NCBI GenBank assembly: GCA_002411615.1
Contig: DHOF01000134.1
Location: 4,880-20,802, forward strand
Direction of reading: 5' to 3'
Length of the DNA stretch: 15,923 nucleotides
Source: Ruminococcaceae bacterium UBA5397
Lineage (GTDB): Bacteria; Bacillota; Clostridia; Oscillospirales; Acutalibacteraceae
The notes beneath the pieces are model-generated. The model had not been told where the DNA came from. It searched no databases and was given only the letters and a program-made list of their open reading frames with translations. Below, piece after piece: positions 4,158 to 15,194 of the stretch (its first letter is position 1; each line of letters begins with the position of its first letter). The position numbers were made by a program, and so were the translations under genes.

Positions 4158-5003
4158 ATGTCAGTTTTATCGGTTTCGGGACTTTCGAAATCTTATTCAT
4201 CTTTTTCGTTGAAAGATGTTAGCTTTGAGCTGCAAGAGGGCGCTATTACCGGATTTATCGGGAGAAATGGCGCGGGGAAAACCACAACTCTAAAGTCTCT
4301 GCTCAATTTTGTTCATCCGGACAAAGGGGAGATTCGGTTTTTTGGACAGTCCTTTCAGGAACATGAATTTGAGATCAAGCAGAAAATTGGTTTTGTTTCG
4401 GGGGGGATTTCTTTTTATCCGAAAAAGAAACTGCGTACCATTACTTCGGTTACGAAAAGATTTTATCCGCAGTGGGATGAAGCGGCTTATAAAGAATATT
4501 TAGAACGCTTTGAACTGGATGAAGATAAAGTGCCGGATTCCCTTTCGGCCGGTATGAAAGTAAAATACTCTTTGGCACTGGCACTTTCTCATCGGGCAAA
4601 ACTGCTGCTTCTTGATGAACCCACCAGTGGTCTGGATCCGGTTTCTAGAGACGATCTGCTGGATGTGTTTTTGGATCTTATCGAAAAAGATGGTGTTACG
4701 ATTCTGTTTTCGACCCATATCACCTCTGATTTGGAAAAATGTGCAGAAGAGATTCTCTACTTAAGAAAAGGCGAAATTATTGGAAGAGGGAAACTAAAAG
4801 AATTCCAGAATCAATTTGTTCTCTGTAATTTTTCGCAAGAGATGAAAGAACAATTAAAGCCGTATCTTGCGGGATATAAGCGTGAAAAAGAAGGATTCAG
4901 TGCTCTCTTTTATAAAGACCATCTGCCGCAGGGGAATTTTGATTACTATCCGGCAGATTTAGAATCGATTATGGTACATTTGGAAAAGGGGGAATTCGCA
5001 TGA
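4158..5003 (+). CDS. ABC-2 exporter ATP-binding protein (YtrB/BcrA-like)
   Basis: This is the cytoplasmic ATPase of a drug- or peptide-exporter-type ABC transporter, 281 residues. Walker A is GRNGAGKTT (35-43), the signature is the variant LSAGM (129-133), Walker B and D-loop are LLLLDEPTSGLDP (149-161), and the H-loop is STH (H187). The Q-loop region reads IGFVSGGISFYP (78-89), with Gly-Gly where Gln or Glu is usual. The C-terminal 80 residues are family-variable. The ATG at 4158 follows AAGGAGGAAAGGGGAG. Its stop overlaps the start of the permease gene (ATGA, 5000-5003), so the two are translationally coupled. Relatives sit in GntR-controlled operons that respond to cell-wall antibiotics or bacteriocins (for example B. 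subtilis ytr). The substrate here is unknown. Confidence 0.9.
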   Translation: MSVLSVSGLSKSYSSFSLKDVSFELQEGAITGFIGRNGAGKTTTLKSLLNFVHPDKGEIRFFGQSFQEHEFEIKQKIGFVSGGISFYPKKKLRTITSVTKRFYPQWDEAAYKEYLERFELDEDKVPDSLSAGMKVKYSLALALSHRAKLLLLDEPTSGLDPVSRDDLLDVFLDLIEKDGVTILFSTHITSDLEKCAEEILYLRKGEIIGRGKLKEFQNQFVLCNFSQEMKEQLKPYLAGYKREKEGFSALFYKDHLPQGNFDYYPADLESIMVHLEKGEFA

Positions 5004-5647
5004 AAAATTTGATTTATAAAGAGATCAAGCTTGCATTGCATCCCACGGCACCCTTGTTTTTGCTGCTGTCAACATTGTTGCTGATACCGAATTATCCTTA
5101 TGAAGTCGTCTTCTTTTATACCTGCTTAGCTGTCTTCTTCCATTGCCTGAGTGGGCGGGAAAATCATGATATTGAATATTCGCTGTTGCTGCCGATTCAA
5201 AAAAAATCGATTGTGGAGGCAAGATTTTTGTTTGTAATCGTTTTGCAGATGATGCAGGTTTTAGTGACAATTCCGTTTGTGTTTTTAAGAAACTACTTAA
5301 TTCCAGAAGGCAATCAAGCGGGAATGGATGCAAATGTAGCGCTTTTTGGAAATGTATTTTTGTTGATGGGAATTTTTAATCTTGTCTTTTTTGTGCTTTA
5401 TTATCGAAATCCGGATAAAGTGGGAAAAGCTTTTGCAGTTTCCAGTATCATATTTTTTGCAGTCATGGTAGTTTTAGAGGCATTTGTTTTTGCAGTGCCA
5501 TTTTTCCGCGATCAGCTAAATACGAAAGATCCGATGTATCTGCCCCAAAAGCTGGTAATGTTAGCGATCGGGGTTGCGGTTTATGTAATTTTTACAGGAA
5601 TTGCTTACCGAAAATCGACTTCTACTTTTGAAAAACTAGACTTTTAG
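5000..5647 (+). CDS. ABC-2 type permease, six predicted membrane helices
   Basis: This 215-residue membrane protein overlaps the ATPase stop codon by 4 bases and has a GGGGGAA ribosome site within that gene. Hydrophobic segments lie at about 16-30, 33-50, 76-95, 112-134, 144-167 and 185-203, a typical ABC-2 half-transporter layout. The cytoplasmic motif SGRENHDIEYSLLLPIQKK (51-69) between helices 2 and 3 resembles the D-x-x-x-LP-x-x-R/K signature of the short ABC-2 permeases paired with YtrB-like ATPases (PF13346-type, assigned from memory). It probably forms the membrane channel with the upstream ATPase, and the exported substrate cannot be read from the sequence. Confidence 0.83.
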   Translation: MKNLIYKEIKLALHPTAPLFLLLSTLLLIPNYPYEVVFFYTCLAVFFHCLSGRENHDIEYSLLLPIQKKSIVEARFLFVIVLQMMQVLVTIPFVFLRNYLIPEGNQAGMDANVALFGNVFLLMGIFNLVFFVLYYRNPDKVGKAFAVSSIIFFAVMVVLEAFVFAVPFFRDQLNTKDPMYLPQKLVMLAIGVAVYVIFTGIAYRKSTSTFEKLDF

Positions 5648-5724: not shown

Positions 5725-8700
5725 TTAAGGCTTGCGCAGTTTTGGAACAAGCCAAATTACCATTGCCCAGAAGAATTCATAAATAATCAGGCTCATGGTG
5801 GAAATTTGCTGCAGACCGGAATAACAGGTAAGCAGTGCTACCATGATGAAACCGAGTACAACAGCGACATTTTGCAGGACAATGGCAATGGAGATATTTC
5901 CTCGTTCCCGCACACAGGCGGTTACCAGACGCATCAATGCCGTAGGACGTCCCTTGGTGGCAATCATAGCCGGTTTTTCGCTGCATGCCTCGCAGGTACG
6001 GCTGACATAAAGTGCCCCCAACCGTTCCGGTAGGACTCGGATTCCGTGTGGATCCAAGCCGAAAAGTTCCGCGAGAAAAGTTGGAGTGATATTTGGATCG
6101 CAGTTGCGTAAAATCAACGAGATGCCATTATTCTCCATCCGGCGCAATTCCTGAAGGCGTCGGCGGTCACAGCTATAGGTAATGATCAGCATGGCAATCA
6201 GTTCTCCGCCGATTGCAAGATAAACCAGCTTTTTCCCGCCCTGAATATATTTTTGCTCAATGGCTTCTTCAGGTGGCTCAATTTTATGAGCAGAGAGCAG
6301 TTCGCGGTTCCCTACAAAAACCCGATGACCGTTGATCCAGCCGCTTAAGCCTTGTCCGTCTGTATAAGAAACTTTTTCAACTTCCGGAAGCTTTTTGTGC
6401 TGTGTATGAATCACTTGATCAAACAAAGAAGAAAGTGGGGAATGAGCGGCAATCATCAGCGCTGCCGCCTCCATGAGAAAATCGTCAATGGGAGCATTTT
6501 TGAAAGTTTTGATTCCATTTAAAGTGACCGTGTTTTTGGGGAATAGATCCTGAGAATCCATCATCACCGCATTTGATTCGCAGAAATGCTGAACAGCAGG
6601 GAATCCGATCACCATGCCGCCGCACTGAGCGGCGATTCGGCTGATTCTTGCAAGCGGAAGATTTACGGTCAGCAGATTCATAAAAGGAGTCGTGATGCAC
6701 GTTGCCGCAGCAAATGCAGTAAATGCGTTTGCGACATCTTTCGTCAGCACTAAAGTGATAATACAAAGAACCAAACTAGCTAGAAAAGCAACAGGCGCAA
6801 TCGTCTGATTGGCGCGGTCACTCGGATCGTCTTCATAAGAAAGACGGAGAAAATGCGATAGAAAATTGGTTTCAGTCTGATAAGCGATCACTGGGGTATC
6901 CATTGTACAACCGTCTGCTAACTGCAGACCAGTATTATAGTCTTCAAATAACGTTACAGCGTATTTTTTATCCGGTGAAACCACAAAATGAAAGTTCTTG
7001 TTAATCCGTTTGATCATGCTGAATTTTCCTAATGTATTGAGGAACAATGCAGCGGTTGCTACGCTTGCATAAAGATTAAGAGAGCCAGAGGAAAAACGTG
7101 TCTGCATGAAAAATGCCAGAATGGATTGAACAAGAGCGGCGATTGCGGCGATCGCAACCGCACTATCCGAATTGGCGTGGAATCGGAACAGCGCTTTTAG
7201 TCCGTTCCAGATGGTTGCTCCGCAGAATACGAAAGCGATCATAGTAAAGATCACATTACAGATAAGGTATACAGTAATGTTCAGACGTTGGAAGCCAAAG
7301 AATCCAAATTCGCCCAGCCAACCGAAGATCAGCAGCAGAACGGTAGAAATTCCGGTCACACCCAAACGCAGAGAAAGTTTTCTTAAATTTGCATTTAAAT
7401 CGTGAAAAACGGCAGGAGCATCATTACTGTTGCTGTAATCCTCTAATTCTTCAGCCTCTTTAGGAGGCGTTTCTTCCGACGGATCATTTTCCGGTTCGTC
7501 CATGCCTGAAAAATAGAAAAGAGAGCGTTTTTTTTTCTTCGGCTTTTTAGGCGGCAGAGAAGTTGGGTTCAGATTTCCATCCGCTTTGATAGGCTCCGTC
7601 GATTTTTGCTGCGCCGGTTTTTCTTTCGGAACTTCAGCAGACGGGGTCGGCGCGGGAGCAGGGATTCCTTCCTTAAGAGGCTCGATTGGCTCAATCTTTT
7701 CCCAGTCTTTTCTGCGGGCTGATAAAAAATCAACGGCATCATCCTGCGGCATGCCATTCTTGGAATATGTTTTTGCCGCCTCTTTTAAAGGAAAAGCGAG
7801 GTCATCAACTTCAATAAAATGAATGGGGGCGGTTTGACACCGGTAAGAAACTTTTTTATTAACAGGCTTAACAGCAAAATCTGAGGCGAGGAGAGGAGTG
7901 GCTTCTTCCCGTACAGGCTCTGGCCGCGTGACGGGTTCTTCTACCTTTGGCGCGGAAGACTCTTTATGCGGCAGAGGGGGAGTTAGCGTGGGCTCTTTTA
8001 CCGGAACTGGTTTTTGAATAGCGCCAGAAGTTGTTAAGGGCATCGTCGGTTTGTGAAAAACCAACTTTTCCGCGGAGGCTAAATTGGCTTTTGCAGCCTT
8101 TTCCTCAATGGGTTTGTACTGCATTTTGGAACCGCGTTTAGCTGCAGCTTCCTGAATCTCTTTTAAGCTGATTGCGGTGGTAATGGAAAAAATATCTTCC
8201 TGTTCAGGATCCTGTACGACTTTTTCAACCCGTTTGCGGCGTTCTTGATGAAGTTTGCGGAATCTTTCTTCTAGTTCGGGATCGCGCTCCTTTTTGCGCT
8301 TGGGATCGAACAAATAAGAAAAAGTGCCTGTGGCGCCTTTTGGATTTTCTTCCGGACGAATGGGTTTAAAAGACATGGTTTCTTCATATTCCCGCTGATA
8401 TTCTTCGCGGGATTTTAATTTTAGACCATAATAAATATCATCTTCACCGGCGGCGATGTCGTCCTTAGAACTTTTTTTCTTTTTCTTTTTTTGGCTTTGT
8501 GTTTCATCCTGCTTTTCCACAGGCGCTTTTAAAGGTGTCTGTGCTAACTTTTGAGAGGATGACTTTTCACTTTCCTTTGCATAAGGATTGCGGGAAATCT
8601 CTTCAGGTGTTTTATGAATCGGACTTTCTGCTTTTGGAGCAGGAGAGGCCGATTTTTTGGCGGCTTCTTTTTTAGCCGCGGTTTCTGCTAAAATTTCATC

Positions 8701-8736
8701 CAGGGAATAACCTGGGTTTTGTTTCTTTTCGTCCAT
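5725..8736 (-). CDS. Large membrane protein resembling a P-type ATPase with altered catalytic motifs (putative pseudo-ATPase)
   Basis: 1003 residues, ATG at 8736 with TAGGGGAT before it. Residues 1-450 are charged, Lys/Glu/Pro-rich and probably disordered, including a run of six Lys (83-88) and Pro-rich linkers (241-280, 359-400). Helices follow at about 457-475, 485-509, 522-545, 553-570, 646-666, 668-690, 949-970 and 976-997, an eight-helix P1B-like plan. Cytoplasmic parts align by eye with P1B ATPases. A short A-domain lacks TGES. D727 in VMMDSQDL sits where DKTGT should be. SP767 replaces HP in the N-domain. G794-x-G796 then NGHRVFVGN (802-810) match the nucleotide-binding GxG region. NCD880 replaces TGD, LPER (902-905) is kept, and no GDGxND is present. 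Helix 6 lacks the CPC metal motif. It probably cannot pump ions, so a sensing or scaffold role is inferred. It follows rlmB by 15 bp. Confidence 0.8.
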   Translation of the reverse strand: MDEKKQNPGYSLDEILAETAAKKEAAKKSASPAPKAESPIHKTPEEISRNPYAKESEKSSSQKLAQTPLKAPVEKQDETQSQKKKKKKSSKDDIAAGEDDIYYGLKLKSREEYQREYEETMSFKPIRPEENPKGATGTFSYLFDPKRKKERDPELEERFRKLHQERRKRVEKVVQDPEQEDIFSITTAISLKEIQEAAAKRGSKMQYKPIEEKAAKANLASAEKLVFHKPTMPLTTSGAIQKPVPVKEPTLTPPLPHKESSAPKVEEPVTRPEPVREEATPLLASDFAVKPVNKKVSYRCQTAPIHFIEVDDLAFPLKEAAKTYSKNGMPQDDAVDFLSARRKDWEKIEPIEPLKEGIPAPAPTPSAEVPKEKPAQQKSTEPIKADGNLNPTSLPPKKPKKKKRSLFYFSGMDEPENDPSEETPPKEAEELEDYSNSNDAPAVFHDLNANLRKLSLRLGVTGISTVLLLIFGWLGEFGFFGFQRLNITVYLICNVIFTMIAFVFCGATIWNGLKALFRFHANSDSAVAIAAIAALVQSILAFFMQTRFSSGSLNLYASVATAALFLNTLGKFSMIKRINKNFHFVVSPDKKYAVTLFEDYNTGLQLADGCTMDTPVIAYQTETNFLSHFLRLSYEDDPSDRANQTIAPVAFLASLVLCIITLVLTKDVANAFTAFAAATCITTPFMNLLTVNLPLARISRIAAQCGGMVIGFPAVQHFCESNAVMMDSQDLFPKNTVTLNGIKTFKNAPIDDFLMEAAALMIAAHSPLSSLFDQVIHTQHKKLPEVEKVSYTDGQGLSGWINGHRVFVGNRELLSAHKIEPPEEAIEQKYIQGGKKLVYLAIGGELIAMLIITYSCDRRRLQELRRMENNGISLILRNCDPNITPTFLAELFGLDPHGIRVLPERLGALYVSRTCEACSEKPAMIATKGRPTALMRLVTACVRERGNISIAIVLQNVAVVLGFIMVALLTCYSGLQQISTMSLIIYEFFWAMVIWLVPKLRKP

Positions 8737-8751
8737 CGTATCCCCTACTTT

Positions 8752-9543
8752 CTATTTGGATTTAAGGCCGGATCGCTGCCGTGCAACTTCATAACAGATA
8801 ATTCCGCAGGCAACAGATGCGTTGAGGGAGTTAATTTTTCCTTTCATGGGAAGAGAGACAATAAAGTCACATTTTTCCCGTACCAGTCTTCCGATACCGA
8901 ACCCTTCACTTCCAATGACAACTGCGCATGGGCCGCGGTAGTCGAGGGTACACCATGATTCGCCGCCCATATCAGCTCCATAGAGCCAGCACCCGCGGCT
9001 TTTCAATTCTTCCAGAGTGGCAGAAAGATTATTGACGCGTACAACCGGTACATATTCAATTGCACCGGCGCTCGCTTTTCCGACTGCATAAGAGAGACCA
9101 ACACTTCTGCGTTTTGGAATAATAACACCATGGGCTCCTGCACATTCCGCTACCCGCAGGATTGCCCCCAGGTTATGAGGATCTTCCAGCTCGTCCGCCA
9201 CAATCAAAAACGGCGGTTCATTACGGGATTTGGCCAGCGCAAAAACATCGTCAAGTGTAGCATATTCTTTAGCGGCAGCGACTGCCACAACACCCTGATG
9301 GGCACATCCTCCACAAAGAAAGGAGAGCTTTTTGGGGTCTGCTTCCTTAATGACGGTACCGCGCTTTTTTGCTTCGGCAATTAATGCACCAAGACTGCCG
9401 CTGTGTTCTCCGCGGACAACAAACAGCGTATCAATTTCACGGCCGCTGTTGAGCGCTTCTTTCACTGCGTTGCGTCCGGCGATAATTCCTTCTTTTTTGG
9501 AATCATCTTTGTTGTCGATTTCTAGTTTTGCATCCGTTTTCAT
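8752..9543 (-). CDS. rlmB: RlmB-like 23S rRNA 2'-O-methyltransferase (SpoU/TrmH family)
   Basis: This 263-residue SPOUT-class methyltransferase transfers a methyl group from S-adenosylmethionine to a ribose 2'-OH, most likely in 23S rRNA (G2251-type site in E. coli). The L30e-like substrate-binding domain starts at IIAGRNAVKEAL (20-31). The three SpoU motifs are intact: motif 1 DPHNLGAILR (121-130) with its catalytic Arg, motif 2 VVIGSEGFGI (208-217), and motif 3 LPMKGKINSLNASVA (231-245), which forms the knotted cofactor site. The ATG at 9543 follows AAAGGAG. The N-terminal 18 residues are charged and outside the fold. It is the first gene of a two-gene unit with the P-type-ATPase-like protein. 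RlmB is the best guess, although other TrmH paralogs share the same motifs. Confidence 0.9.
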   Translation of the reverse strand: MKTDAKLEIDNKDDSKKEGIIAGRNAVKEALNSGREIDTLFVVRGEHSGSLGALIAEAKKRGTVIKEADPKKLSFLCGGCAHQGVVAVAAAKEYATLDDVFALAKSRNEPPFLIVADELEDPHNLGAILRVAECAGAHGVIIPKRRSVGLSYAVGKASAGAIEYVPVVRVNNLSATLEELKSRGCWLYGADMGGESWCTLDYRGPCAVVIGSEGFGIGRLVREKCDFIVSLPMKGKINSLNASVACGIICYEVARQRSGLKSK

Positions 9544-12586: not shown

Positions 12587-13597
12587 TTAGCCTTTGAGTG
12601 CTTCATAAGCAGCAACCGCACAAGCAACAGTCGCACCGACCATTGGATTGTTGCCCATTCCGATCAGTCCCATCATTTCCACGTGAGCAGGGACGCTGGA
12701 GGAACCTGCAAATTGAGCGTCGCCGTGCATACGGCCCATAGAATCGGTTAAGCCGTAAGAAGCAGGCCCTGCACCGACGTTATCCGGATGAAGCGTTCTG
12801 CCGGTACCACCGCCGGAAGCAACTGAAAAATAGTGCTTGCCGTTTTCAATGGCCCATTTTTTATAGGTGCCGGCAACCAAATGCTGAAAACGAACCGGGT
12901 TAGTAGAGTTTCCGGTGATGGAAACATCAACGCCCTCGTGTTTCATGATTGCTACGCCTTCCAAAACGTCATTGGCGCCATAGCATTTGACTGCAGCACG
13001 GTCGCCGTCGGAATAGGCATGGGTATCGACGACTTTGAGCTCGTCATTATAGGGATCATACTCGGTTTTTACATAGGTAAAGCCATTAATTCTGGAAATA
13101 ATAAAAGCGGCATCTTTTCCCAGACCATTTAAGATAATGCGCAGCGGCTTTTTGCGGGCACGGTTTGCAGTACGCGCAATGCCGATAGCGCCTTCGGCTG
13201 CGGCAAAGCTCTCATGTCCTGCAAGAAATGCAAAGCACTGGGTCTCGTCCCGCAAAAGACGGGCGCCGAGGTTGCCGTGTCCCAATCCGACTTTCCGGTT
13301 TTCGGCAACGGAACCCGGAATGCAGAAGGCCTGCAGACCAACGCCGATTTTCTCAGCGGCATCAGAAGCAGAAGCTGCGCCTTCTTTTAAAGCGATCGCG
13401 GTGCCAAGGGTATATGCCCACGAAGCATTTTCAAACGCGATGGGTTGAATGCCCTTTACGATTTTATCAACATCAATTCCTTTGGAAAGGCAAAGATCTT
13501 TGGCTGCTTCGAGACTTTCAATCCCGTATTTTTTCATGCAGACCTTGATCTTTTCCATTCTTCTTTCTTTTCCTTCAAATGTTACATCATTGGCCAT
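12587..13597 (-). CDS. GGGtGRT protein (uncharacterised family)
   Basis: 336 residues, named for its invariant motif, here SGGGTGRT (261-268). I recognise the family from the motif and the C-terminal stretch, with SSSVPAHVEMMGLIGMGNNP (299-318) also typical. Other conserved-looking parts are GHGNLGARLL (106-115), FLAGHESFAAAEGAIGIARTANRARKK (124-150), and KDAAFIISRINGFTY (161-175). It has no signal peptide or clear membrane helix, so it is presumably cytoplasmic. Six Cys are scattered (20, 36, 92, 121, 205, 326) with no CxxC cluster. The ATG at 13597 follows AAAGGAGG. It lies 29 bp after a NifU-like scaffold gene in the same operon, the partner usually found with this family, so a link to iron-sulfur or metal handling is inferred. 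Biochemical function is unknown to me. Confidence 0.9.
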   Translation of the reverse strand: MANDVTFEGKERRMEKIKVCMKKYGIESLEAAKDLCLSKGIDVDKIVKGIQPIAFENASWAYTLGTAIALKEGAASASDAAEKIGVGLQAFCIPGSVAENRKVGLGHGNLGARLLRDETQCFAFLAGHESFAAAEGAIGIARTANRARKKPLRIILNGLGKDAAFIISRINGFTYVKTEYDPYNDELKVVDTHAYSDGDRAAVKCYGANDVLEGVAIMKHEGVDVSITGNSTNPVRFQHLVAGTYKKWAIENGKHYFSVASGGGTGRTLHPDNVGAGPASYGLTDSMGRMHGDAQFAGSSSVPAHVEMMGLIGMGNNPMVGATVACAVAAYEALKG

Positions 13598-13626
13598 TTT
13601 GCTGTGTCCTCCTTTATCTCTCGGAT

Positions 13627-14319
13627 TTATTCTTCGCGGGGATCAATATATCTGGCTGCGCCGTCAAAACGTCCATATTGTCCGATATTATCTTTGTATG
13701 CCTGATCCGGCGATTTTCCGTGGCGGATATCTTCCAGCATTTTTCCAACTTTGACGAACTGGTAGCCGATGACTTCATCATTTTCATCCAGAGCCATCTT
13801 CAGCACATAGCCTTCGGTCATCTCCATATAGCGCACGCCTTTTGCATTCGTGCTGAACATGGTGCCAACCTGGCTGCGCAGACCTTTGCCCAGATCTTCC
13901 AGACTCGCTCCGATGGGAAGCCCTCCCTCGGAAAATGCGGTCTGGCTGCGGCCGTAAACAATTTGCTTGAAAAGTTCCCGCATGGCAACGTTGATTGCAT
14001 CGCATACAAGATCGGTATTCAGGCATTCCAGAATTGTTTTTCCCGGAAGAATCTCTGCTGCCATAGCAGCAGAATGAGTCATTCCGGAACAGCCGATGGT
14101 TTCTACCAGTGCTTCCTGTACAATACCATCCTTAATATTAAGAGTCAGTTTACAAGTACCCTGCTGCGGCGCACACCAGCCAACACCATGAGTCAATCCG
14201 GAAATATCTTTGATGTCATAAGCCTTTACCCATTTTCCCTCTTCTGGAATCGGAGCGGGGCCGTGCTTTGGTCCTTTTGCTACGGTACACATTCTTTCCA
14301 CTTCTGCGGAATAGTTCAT
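13627..14319 (-). CDS. NifU/IscU-like iron-sulfur cluster scaffold protein paired with GGGtGRT
   Basis: 230 residues from the ATG at 14319, chosen because AAAGGAG precedes it. The frame extends back to an ATG at 14346 without a ribosome site. The IscU-like core is TIGCSGMTHSAAMAAEILPGKT (75-96), whose C77 matches the central cluster Cys of IscU. Other candidate ligands are C49 or C56 (GWCAPQQGTC) and C106 (DLVCDAIN), so three Cys are available as in a scaffold. It is longer than IscU (about 130 residues), with an extra N-terminal segment and a C-terminal part from about 130 (VRYMEMTEGYVLKMALDENDEVIGYQFVKVGKMLEDI) that is peculiar to this subgroup. No cysteine desulfurase (iscS/nifS) or IscR is nearby. 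It is first in the operon. Confidence 0.85.
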   Translation of the reverse strand: MNYSAEVERMCTVAKGPKHGPAPIPEEGKWVKAYDIKDISGLTHGVGWCAPQQGTCKLTLNIKDGIVQEALVETIGCSGMTHSAAMAAEILPGKTILECLNTDLVCDAINVAMRELFKQIVYGRSQTAFSEGGLPIGASLEDLGKGLRSQVGTMFSTNAKGVRYMEMTEGYVLKMALDENDEVIGYQFVKVGKMLEDIRHGKSPDQAYKDNIGQYGRFDGAARYIDPREE

Positions 14320-14678
14320 CTTCGTTCTCCTTTCAGCATCCGGCACTCGCTTTTTTGGAGCGCCTCCCGCATGTCATTTCTATATGCTTCATTATAGGGG
14401 ATTCAAAAACGTTGTGCAAGCTGAAAAAATAAAAAGATAAAAATTTAACAATCTTTTTAAGATAACCGAATTCTAAAAATATCAATGAAAAGAAAGAAGG
14501 AAAAGCCTTTTTGTGAAAATCGGTGGGGAGGAGGGACCTTTGGAGGAATTATCGGAGATGAAAATCAGAGATGGAGGGATTTAAAGTGCTTTCTTCGTAC
14601 TTTTTTTCAGTTTTGGACCGTTAAGATGGAGATACAGCCTTTCGAAGCGGACAGGCTTAAAAACGGAGGATTGAAATT
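14320..14678. other. Divergent gap between the NifU-like operon and the signal-peptidase-like gene
   Basis: 359 bp. The left part holds the strong minus-strand promoter. The right part (14485-14678) is purine-rich with several GGAGG-like tracts and overlapping tiny frames: 24 codons from GTG at 14513, and 19 codons from ATG at 14626, whose stop overlaps the next gene's start. None looks like a convincing gene. I see no clear plus-strand promoter. Confidence 0.6.
14391..14419 (-). promoter_or_regulatory. Promoter of the NifU-like/GGGtGRT operon
   Basis: On the minus strand TTGCAC (14414-14419) and a consensus TATAAT (14391-14396) are separated by exactly 17 bp. The leader would be about 65 nt. 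This is the best-looking promoter in the window. Confidence 0.85.
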
Positions 14679-15194
14679 ATGACAATGAAGCGCTGGAAAA
14701 AGATATGGAATATTTTAGGCGGATTATTGGTGGCGCTGGCAGTGGCAATCTTTGTAGTGCCGAGATTTTTCGGATATGTTCCTCTGGGGATGTGCAGCGC
14801 AGGGGTTCGGTGTGAATATCCTCAGGGAAGCCTTTTATATATACAAAAAATACAGCCTGAAAAACTGCGGGTAGGGGAACCCATTGCCTATTATAGGGGG
14901 ACTTTAAAAAGGCAGCCCATTGTGCGCAGAATTACCCGAATTGATTATTCTAACGGTCAGTTTATGGCAAATCAGGACGATTCCGATTTTGCCGCGGATA
15001 TCGTGCCGTTTTCAGATCTGTATGGAGCTCCGGTTTCTTTTTATCTGCCGGGATTAGGAACAGCGTTTACAGAGCTGCAGACGCTGCCCGGAATGGTGAT
15101 CTTGTTTTTTTTGGTCGGTACTTATCTGGTGCTCAACTATTATTTCGGTGCTTTAGCAAAAGGAGAATGGCCGCCGCCGACAGAATTTCGCTGA
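14679..15194 (+). CDS. Signal peptidase I (S26)-like membrane protein lacking the catalytic dyad
   Basis: 171 residues, with ATG at 14679 preceded by GGAGGA 8 bases upstream (a second ATG lies at 14685). It has one helix at each end (about 11-31 and 136-156), like SipW-type signal peptidases. The segment YVPLGMCSAGVRCEYPQGSL (33-52) lines up with the family's VP..VLSGSMEPT-P-GSL, followed by LRVGEPIAYYRG (63-74) for VGDVI-F. The catalytic SGSMEP reads SAGVRC, so the nucleophile Ser becomes G42. The partner Thr-His-Arg reads VRR, so His becomes R83. Without either residue it should not cleave signal peptides. It stops 172 bp upstream of secA, which has its own promoter. The fold assignment is by eye, and an unrelated two-helix exported protein remains possible. 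Confidence 0.65.
   Translation: MTMKRWKKIWNILGGLLVALAVAIFVVPRFFGYVPLGMCSAGVRCEYPQGSLLYIQKIQPEKLRVGEPIAYYRGTLKRQPIVRRITRIDYSNGQFMANQDDSDFAADIVPFSDLYGAPVSFYLPGLGTAFTELQTLPGMVILFFLVGTYLVLNYYFGALAKGEWPPPTEFR

Follow-up and report, generated by a model that had tools for sequence, protein, structure and literature searches.

We analysed a 15,923-nucleotide stretch of the Ruminococcaceae bacterium UBA5397 genome (contig DHOF01000134.1, positions 4,880 to 20,802, forward strand; hereafter the window) and one gene on its minus strand, 5725..8736, which encodes a protein of 1003 amino acids and is termed the pseudo-P1B-ATPase gene. It is well supported by sequence comparison and structure modelling that this protein belongs to a vertically inherited, catalytically dead family of copper-type (P1B) P-type ATPases, i.e. 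a pseudoenzyme, referred to below as the dead pump. P-type ATPases are textbook pumps which are defined by a phosphorylated aspartate. The dead pump appears to be a known fold turned into a non-pump throughout a bacterial order, which we take to be the Oscillospirales of GTDB, and it probably performs a different, non-pumping job.

Fold and altered catalytic sites

The pseudo-P1B-ATPase gene was identified by profile, structure-model and structure-comparison evidence. Its open reading frame (ORF) is intact over 1003 codons, as had been stated in a first-pass annotation made from the sequence. The protein is composed of an N-terminal arm (residues 1-428; 7453..8736, all coordinates of this gene being on the minus strand), predicted to be mostly disordered with a few short helices, followed by a P1B-like body with membrane and cytosolic parts (residues 429-1003; 5728..7452). 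The first-pass annotation was confined to 5725..7380, which corresponds to residues 453-1003, and the arm falls outside this span. A P-type fold had been proposed there for the C-terminal part, and a P1B-type ATPase fold was indeed recovered in the AlphaFold model (predicted local distance difference test, pLDDT, 91), the copper pump LpCopA (3rfu/4bbj) being the nearest solved structure to the body. Eight membrane-helix-like segments are kept. Residues 640-905 matched the CopA model PRK10671 of NCBIfam at E 2.9e-19, with a score of 68.8 bits that falls well short of the model's cut-off of 1316, and also LpCopA 3rfu (E 4e-10). KdpB and other P-type ATPases share the general P-type fold and rank below P1B pumps both by structure (Foldseek, VIA) and by profile. 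The Pfam scan of the window protein gave zero matches, and among 77 aligned members of the family PF00122 (E1-E2_ATPase) was found at E<=0.01 in one and PF00702 (Hydrolase) in three.

The motifs for phosphorylation, dephosphorylation, ATP coordination and metal passage are, as read from the sequence and the model, missing. A string search found DKTGT, TGE, TGD, HP, CPC and GDGxND nowhere in the window protein, and the features of an active P1B-ATPase, namely DKTGT, TGE in a full A domain, HP, GDGxND and CPC, SPC or CPH in M4, are absent from it. By alignment, the DKTGT site reads DSQDL (residues 727-731; 6544..6558) and the TGDxx site reads NCDPN (residues 878-882; 6091..6105). Both readings agree with the first-pass annotation, which had listed TGES, CPC and GDGxND as missing as well. 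Its change of HP to SP was right as to the loss and is read more fully as H765-S766-P767, HSP at the EHP site (6436..6444), with the proline retained and serine where the histidine was; glycine is there in most relatives, GGP being found in 51 of the 77 aligned rows. The former CPC site of M4 lies in ATCITTPF (6682..6705) and reads TPF, with P684 retained and the cysteine pair replaced by threonine and phenylalanine.

The reduced A domain, formed by the M2-M3 loop at about residues 587-637 (6826..6978), lacks TGE. This loop has 55 residues in the window protein and 42-57 across the family, compared to 120 in the real CopA-like pump of the host (L002). Similarly, the hinge segment in which GDGxND is missing is shortened to 36 residues from the 67 of L002 and contains MIATKGR (residues 924-930; 5947..5967). 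The P/N part is full length, with 191 amino acids against 194 in L002. The N-domain glycine loop GQGLSGWINGHRVFVGNR (residues 794-811; 6304..6357) is retained, and LPER, also noted in the first-pass annotation, starts at residue 902.

Conservation and distribution across the order

The homologue search returned 493 proteins, and among the 120 matches listed the body was covered to 98-100% at 49-99% identity. Alignment A2, on which the counts below rest unless stated otherwise, comprised 77 rows down to 17% identity from the window, the loci of its family and at least 15 other families of the order. Real pumps (L002, L083), broken or cut genes (L003, L046, L057, L082, L092) and near copies (L065-L067) were left out beforehand; 95 sequences were filtered to 78 at 85% identity, L035 with an odd start and the divergent L080 were dropped, and the remaining 76 with the window gave the 77 rows. 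Five duplicates (L001, L065, L068, L071, L073) were excluded from the motif comparison of loci.

The orthologues bear out the altered motifs of the window protein. DKTGT or GDGxND was present anywhere in 0/77 rows. At the aligned sites, TGD, HP and CPC-like motifs were likewise found in 0/77 each; off-site strings occur elsewhere in the sequence ([ST]GD in 7 rows, HP in 12 and [CS]P[CHS] in 5). The TGE string occurs within the short A-domain loop of 3/77 rows (L079, L088, L106), so its loss is not absolute. The replacements are largely conserved as D[AS]x[DE]LFP, GGPL and DPN[IV]T. In the region of the DKTGT site, D727 is found in 61/77 rows, with another residue or a gap in the other 16, along with aspartic or glutamic acid at 730 (73/77), F732 (70/77) and P733 (63/77). 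Among the rows shown for divergent families, serine, threonine, arginine or alanine often stands in place of D727, and a '[DE][LIV][FY]' stretch persists. D880 is nearly family-wide (75/77) and N882 is found in 70/77. The retention of aspartates at 727 and 880, to which the first-pass annotation had drawn attention, holds for the window and for D880 across the family, D727 being less constant. G796 and G809 of the N domain are invariant (77/77 each) and G794, the first glycine of GxG, is present in 39/77; the window protein has all three. In M4, C680 is found in 59/77 rows and cysteine or serine at 682 in 58/77, both together in 68/99 rows; the window has Thr682, and C680 occurs in 1/15 rows from families other than that of the window.

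The Nei-Gojobori ratio of nonsynonymous to synonymous substitution (dN/dS) of the body was 0.016-0.116 in 11 pairs, the lowest pair having a saturated dS of 2.0, and 0.026-0.034 between the window and three near relatives. For rlmB, the neighbouring rRNA methyltransferase gene described below, two of these pairs gave 0.028 and 0.038, so the body is constrained about as tightly as a ribosome enzyme. The arm evolves faster (0.08-0.28). Family-wide motif loss is found together with selection on frame and fold, as is proper to a P1B-derived pseudoenzyme, and the first-pass view of a conserved pseudoenzyme that is not a decaying pseudogene stands. Decay or sequencing error could be suspected from the motif losses as such and from the gene being split in two ORFs, by error or real mutation, in four loci (L012, L013, L082, L092), with a stop or two pieces in three order-level matches (G058, G179, G256). 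The open frames of most members, the conserved replacements, the low dN/dS and the order-wide presence rule this out for practical purposes.

When 33 rows of the family and 19 rows of real P1B pumps from the same order were placed in one tree, the dead-pump family stood on one side of a 100/100 branch, which indicates a single origin apart from the active pumps; two of the 19 rows are identical, eight end branches are long and the inner forks are unresolved. The host genome also holds the DKTGT-bearing CopA-like pump (G000:C166, L002), and several relatives likewise carry real pumps.

The A2 profile at E<=1e-45 matched 241 of the 247 genomes of the order sample, a count taken without reading each match individually. 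The weakest match (G204, 167 bits) lies on the contig and strand of rlmB and is without DKTGT. DKTGT-bearing pumps scored lower where checked, with a best of 113.6 bits in one set and 135.1 bits for L002. In twenty further loci, drawn mostly from the weaker of the listed matches, neither DKTGT nor GDGxND was present; 18 lie beside rlmB and the remaining two are cut by contig ends. No A2 match was obtained in six of the 247 genomes (G062, G092, G115, G127, G149, G243). The full-length profile A1 matched 55/60 order genomes, some members being missed or cut, and the C-terminal profile A2 recovered more; in G048, for example, A1 gave the real pump only and A2 revealed the dead-pump member too. 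In wider samples, all 12 matches among 243 genomes of the class and all 7 among 398 genomes of the phylum came from the window's order. These scans scored only the top 3-5 candidates of each genome, so that divergent cases outside the order could be missed, and they gave no kinship for most of the genomes without a match. Named members include Caproiciproducens, Caproicibacter, Anaeromassilibacillus, Neglectibacter, Scatolibacter, Caproicibacterium, Flavonifractor and Candidatus Butyricicoccus.

Database labels on family members (P0018, P0019, P0031, P0041, P0054) include 'cation transport ATPase', 'HAD family hydrolase' and 'Copper-transporting P-type ATPase', and other members are labelled 'hypothetical protein'. 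As statements of activity, the first three are very probably wrong.

A sporulation-only role was considered and rejected. The dead pump is kept in 14 of the 15 order genomes without a match to SpoIVA (PF09547), which argues against such a role; the missing match may be an assembly gap, and the test is weak because SpoIVA is found in 232/247 genomes.

Arm, gene neighbours and possible function

The arm has pLDDT <50 over most of its length, with helices predicted at residues 12-28, 110-121, 153-175, 191-200, 314-326 and 337-345. A conserved short motif, YSLDEILAE, is situated at residues 10-18 (8683..8709). The corresponding regular expression [FYW][ST][VLIMA][DE][DEQ][IL][LIV].[ED] was found in 52/106 members compared to 0/200 composition shuffles, and in 9/36 members from other families. 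These counts are lower bounds, since related variants such as FDLNDILAE (L167) escape the expression. A stricter DNA pattern of the motif gave 9 matches in 50 whole genomes including that of the window, all of them inside the dead-pump gene by coordinates, and a reversed control pattern gave 1 in the same scan. Outside intact members the motif was found in 3/2718 ORFs, each of which is, by sequence and position, an N-terminal fragment of this gene where its frame is split. A second stretch conserved in the alignment, DIYYGLKLKSREEYQREYEE with its flank at about residues 100-121 (8374..8439), includes the predicted helix 110-121; a loose expression found it in 46/109 loci, real pumps being among the 109.

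Upstream of the pseudo-P1B-ATPase gene by 15 nucleotides lies rlmB (8752..9543, minus strand), encoding the 23S rRNA (guanosine-2251-2'-O)-methyltransferase, an enzyme separate from the dead pump (TIGR00186, 230.6 bits, over the curated cut-off of 160.15). The neighbour survey covered 123 loci after removal of duplicates and small fetches, two of which (L165, L166, both at contig ends) were without a family member. In 115 of the other 121 loci rlmB precedes the dead-pump gene in the same orientation; of the six that remain, L046 is unclear and five are truncated at the end of the locus. The gap had a median of 17 nucleotides and was <=50 in 102 of the 115 and <=206 in 111; 21 of the 102 short gaps are overlaps when longest-ORF starts are used, and three gaps of >1000 nucleotides correspond to the split genes of L012, L013 and L092. 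Judged from this spacing, the dead-pump gene is probably co-transcribed with rlmB. A search for rlmB in plasmids gave zero matches.

rlmB itself was found in 241/247 order genomes (E<=1e-25). The six in which it was not found at this cut-off are G136, which has the dead pump, and five of the six that lack the dead pump. Where both are missing, the genes may really have been lost or may fall in an assembly gap that spans the two neighbours. In G062 and in G015, which lacked an A1 match, the family gene would fall off the contig because rlmB lies 419 and 402 nucleotides from the contig end. Two genomes of one genus (G092 and G149, genus g82 of family f2) are without both genes at the cut-offs, a possible joint loss.

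Downstream on the same strand, an EF-G paralogue follows directly in 29/121 loci and further off in 13, with six edges. Ten of the 29 direct followers belong to other families, from 42 other-family loci. The copy in L027 (L027:13656-16886) is of the PRK12740 subfamily. In L167 the paralogue (L167:2083-4167) is followed by a pseudouridine synthase-like ORF, RsuA-like by reading.

Taken as a whole, the evidence is best explained by a membrane-anchored scaffold or adaptor made from a dead P1B pump, an explanation to which we give an even chance. The dead-pump body would anchor the protein in the membrane, and the long arm, which is disordered and cytosolic and bears the motif [FY]S[LV][DE][DE]ILAE and a few further short helices, could capture at least one cytosolic partner. 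As the process served, ribosome maturation or translation at the membrane would be the most likely, because rlmB is probably co-transcribed and an EF-G paralogue follows in a minority of loci. Both the scaffold role and the ribosome link are inferred. A stronger form, in which the dead pump is a core membrane hub of ribosome biology whose arm tethers RlmB, the EF-G paralogue or maturing ribosomes, and which, as far as the literature searched shows, would be the first described bacterial P-type ATPase pseudoenzyme family, is speculative and rather unlikely.

Several observations weigh against this explanation. The adjacency of rlmB may reflect stable inheritance of a gene pair rather than joint function, and the EF-G paralogue was not found downstream in 73/121 loci. 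The expression misses the arm motif in about half of the members, some of which are without a recognisable motif. To judge from the invariant G796 and G809 and the near-invariant D880, a ligand of some kind may still be bound at the site.

The last of these points leads to a nucleotide sensor, in which the dead P and N domains would still bind a nucleotide such as ATP or ADP and signal the energy or stringent state of the cell through the arm. The first-pass annotation had suggested a nucleotide or stress sensor as one possibility, and this role is here taken as tentative. The two invariant glycines leave a nucleotide sensor some chance, and the conservation of D880 and N882 and the kept length of the P/N part, unlike that of the A domain, are in its favour. 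The histidine of HP is required at the equivalent position for ATP binding in copper pumps. Its loss, HP being missing at the site in all rows, makes it less likely that ATP is bound in the ordinary way; neither the KTGT of DKTGT nor GDGxND is left, and the gene neighbours point to ribosome and translation genes rather than a sensor role. A nucleotide sensor is thus considered unlikely, though worth keeping in view. A membrane metal sensor, with the copper path turned into a sensing site (C680 and Cys/Ser682 near the kink proline) that signals via the arm, would fit the descent from copper-type pumps and the frequency of these two residues in the alignment. It is made improbable by the loss of CPC in every row and by C680 being mainly confined to the window's family; the window itself has Thr682, and none of the recurrent neighbours, which were read by eye with few scanned for families, stood out as a metal gene.

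The presence of a genuine P1B pump in the host and in several relatives would allow the dead pump to be its regulatory inactive subunit, but no real pump stood out among the same neighbours and the linkage is to rlmB, which makes this highly improbable. Residual HAD-type phosphatase or phosphotransferase activity via D727 and D880 draws on the retention of the two aspartates; with D727 replaced or gapped in 16 rows and DKTG and GDGxND missing from all 77, we regard it as very remote. The membrane-anchored scaffold or adaptor is the reading that we prefer to these.

Known systems and other features of the window

CopA (LpCopA 3rfu/4bbj; PRK10671, TIGR01525) is the best profile and structure match of the dead pump. 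The two share the fold, the eight membrane-helix-like segments, a full-length P/N part, the kink proline of M4 and part of the N-domain glycine loop. Unlike CopA, the dead pump is without DKTGT, HP, GDGxND and CPC, the window protein is without TGE, the A domain and hinge segment are about halved, and there is a long disordered arm with its own motif. Pseudokinases exemplify pseudoenzymes in which the fold is kept and catalytic residues are lost under strong purifying selection, and the dead pump shares these general features.

An order-wide lineage which keeps its fold after loss of the catalytic motifs offers a natural separation of fold from catalysis. It also represents a near-universal and apparently unstudied membrane protein in a large bacterial group, and because it is paired with rlmB, a connection of the membrane to ribosome maturation can be tested directly. 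No description of a P-type ATPase pseudoenzyme family or of the dead-pump family was found in the open-licence literature searched; the passages of PMC10654040 consulted do not concern inactive P-type ATPases, and the word 'inactive' is absent from its main text.

Downstream of the dead-pump gene, the window possesses a convergent ABC transporter pair instead of an EF-G paralogue, composed of an ABC ATPase (4158-5003) and an ORF that is permease-like by reading (5000-5647) and has no NCBIfam match. Two adjacent minus-strand genes at 12587-14346 are also found as a pair near the dead-pump gene in several relatives. The product of 12587-13597 has no NCBIfam match and is presumably a GGGtGRT protein, while that of 13627-14346 is NifU-like, below the cut-off. 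A weak match to signal peptidase I (TIGR02228), below the cut-off, was observed at 14679-15194.
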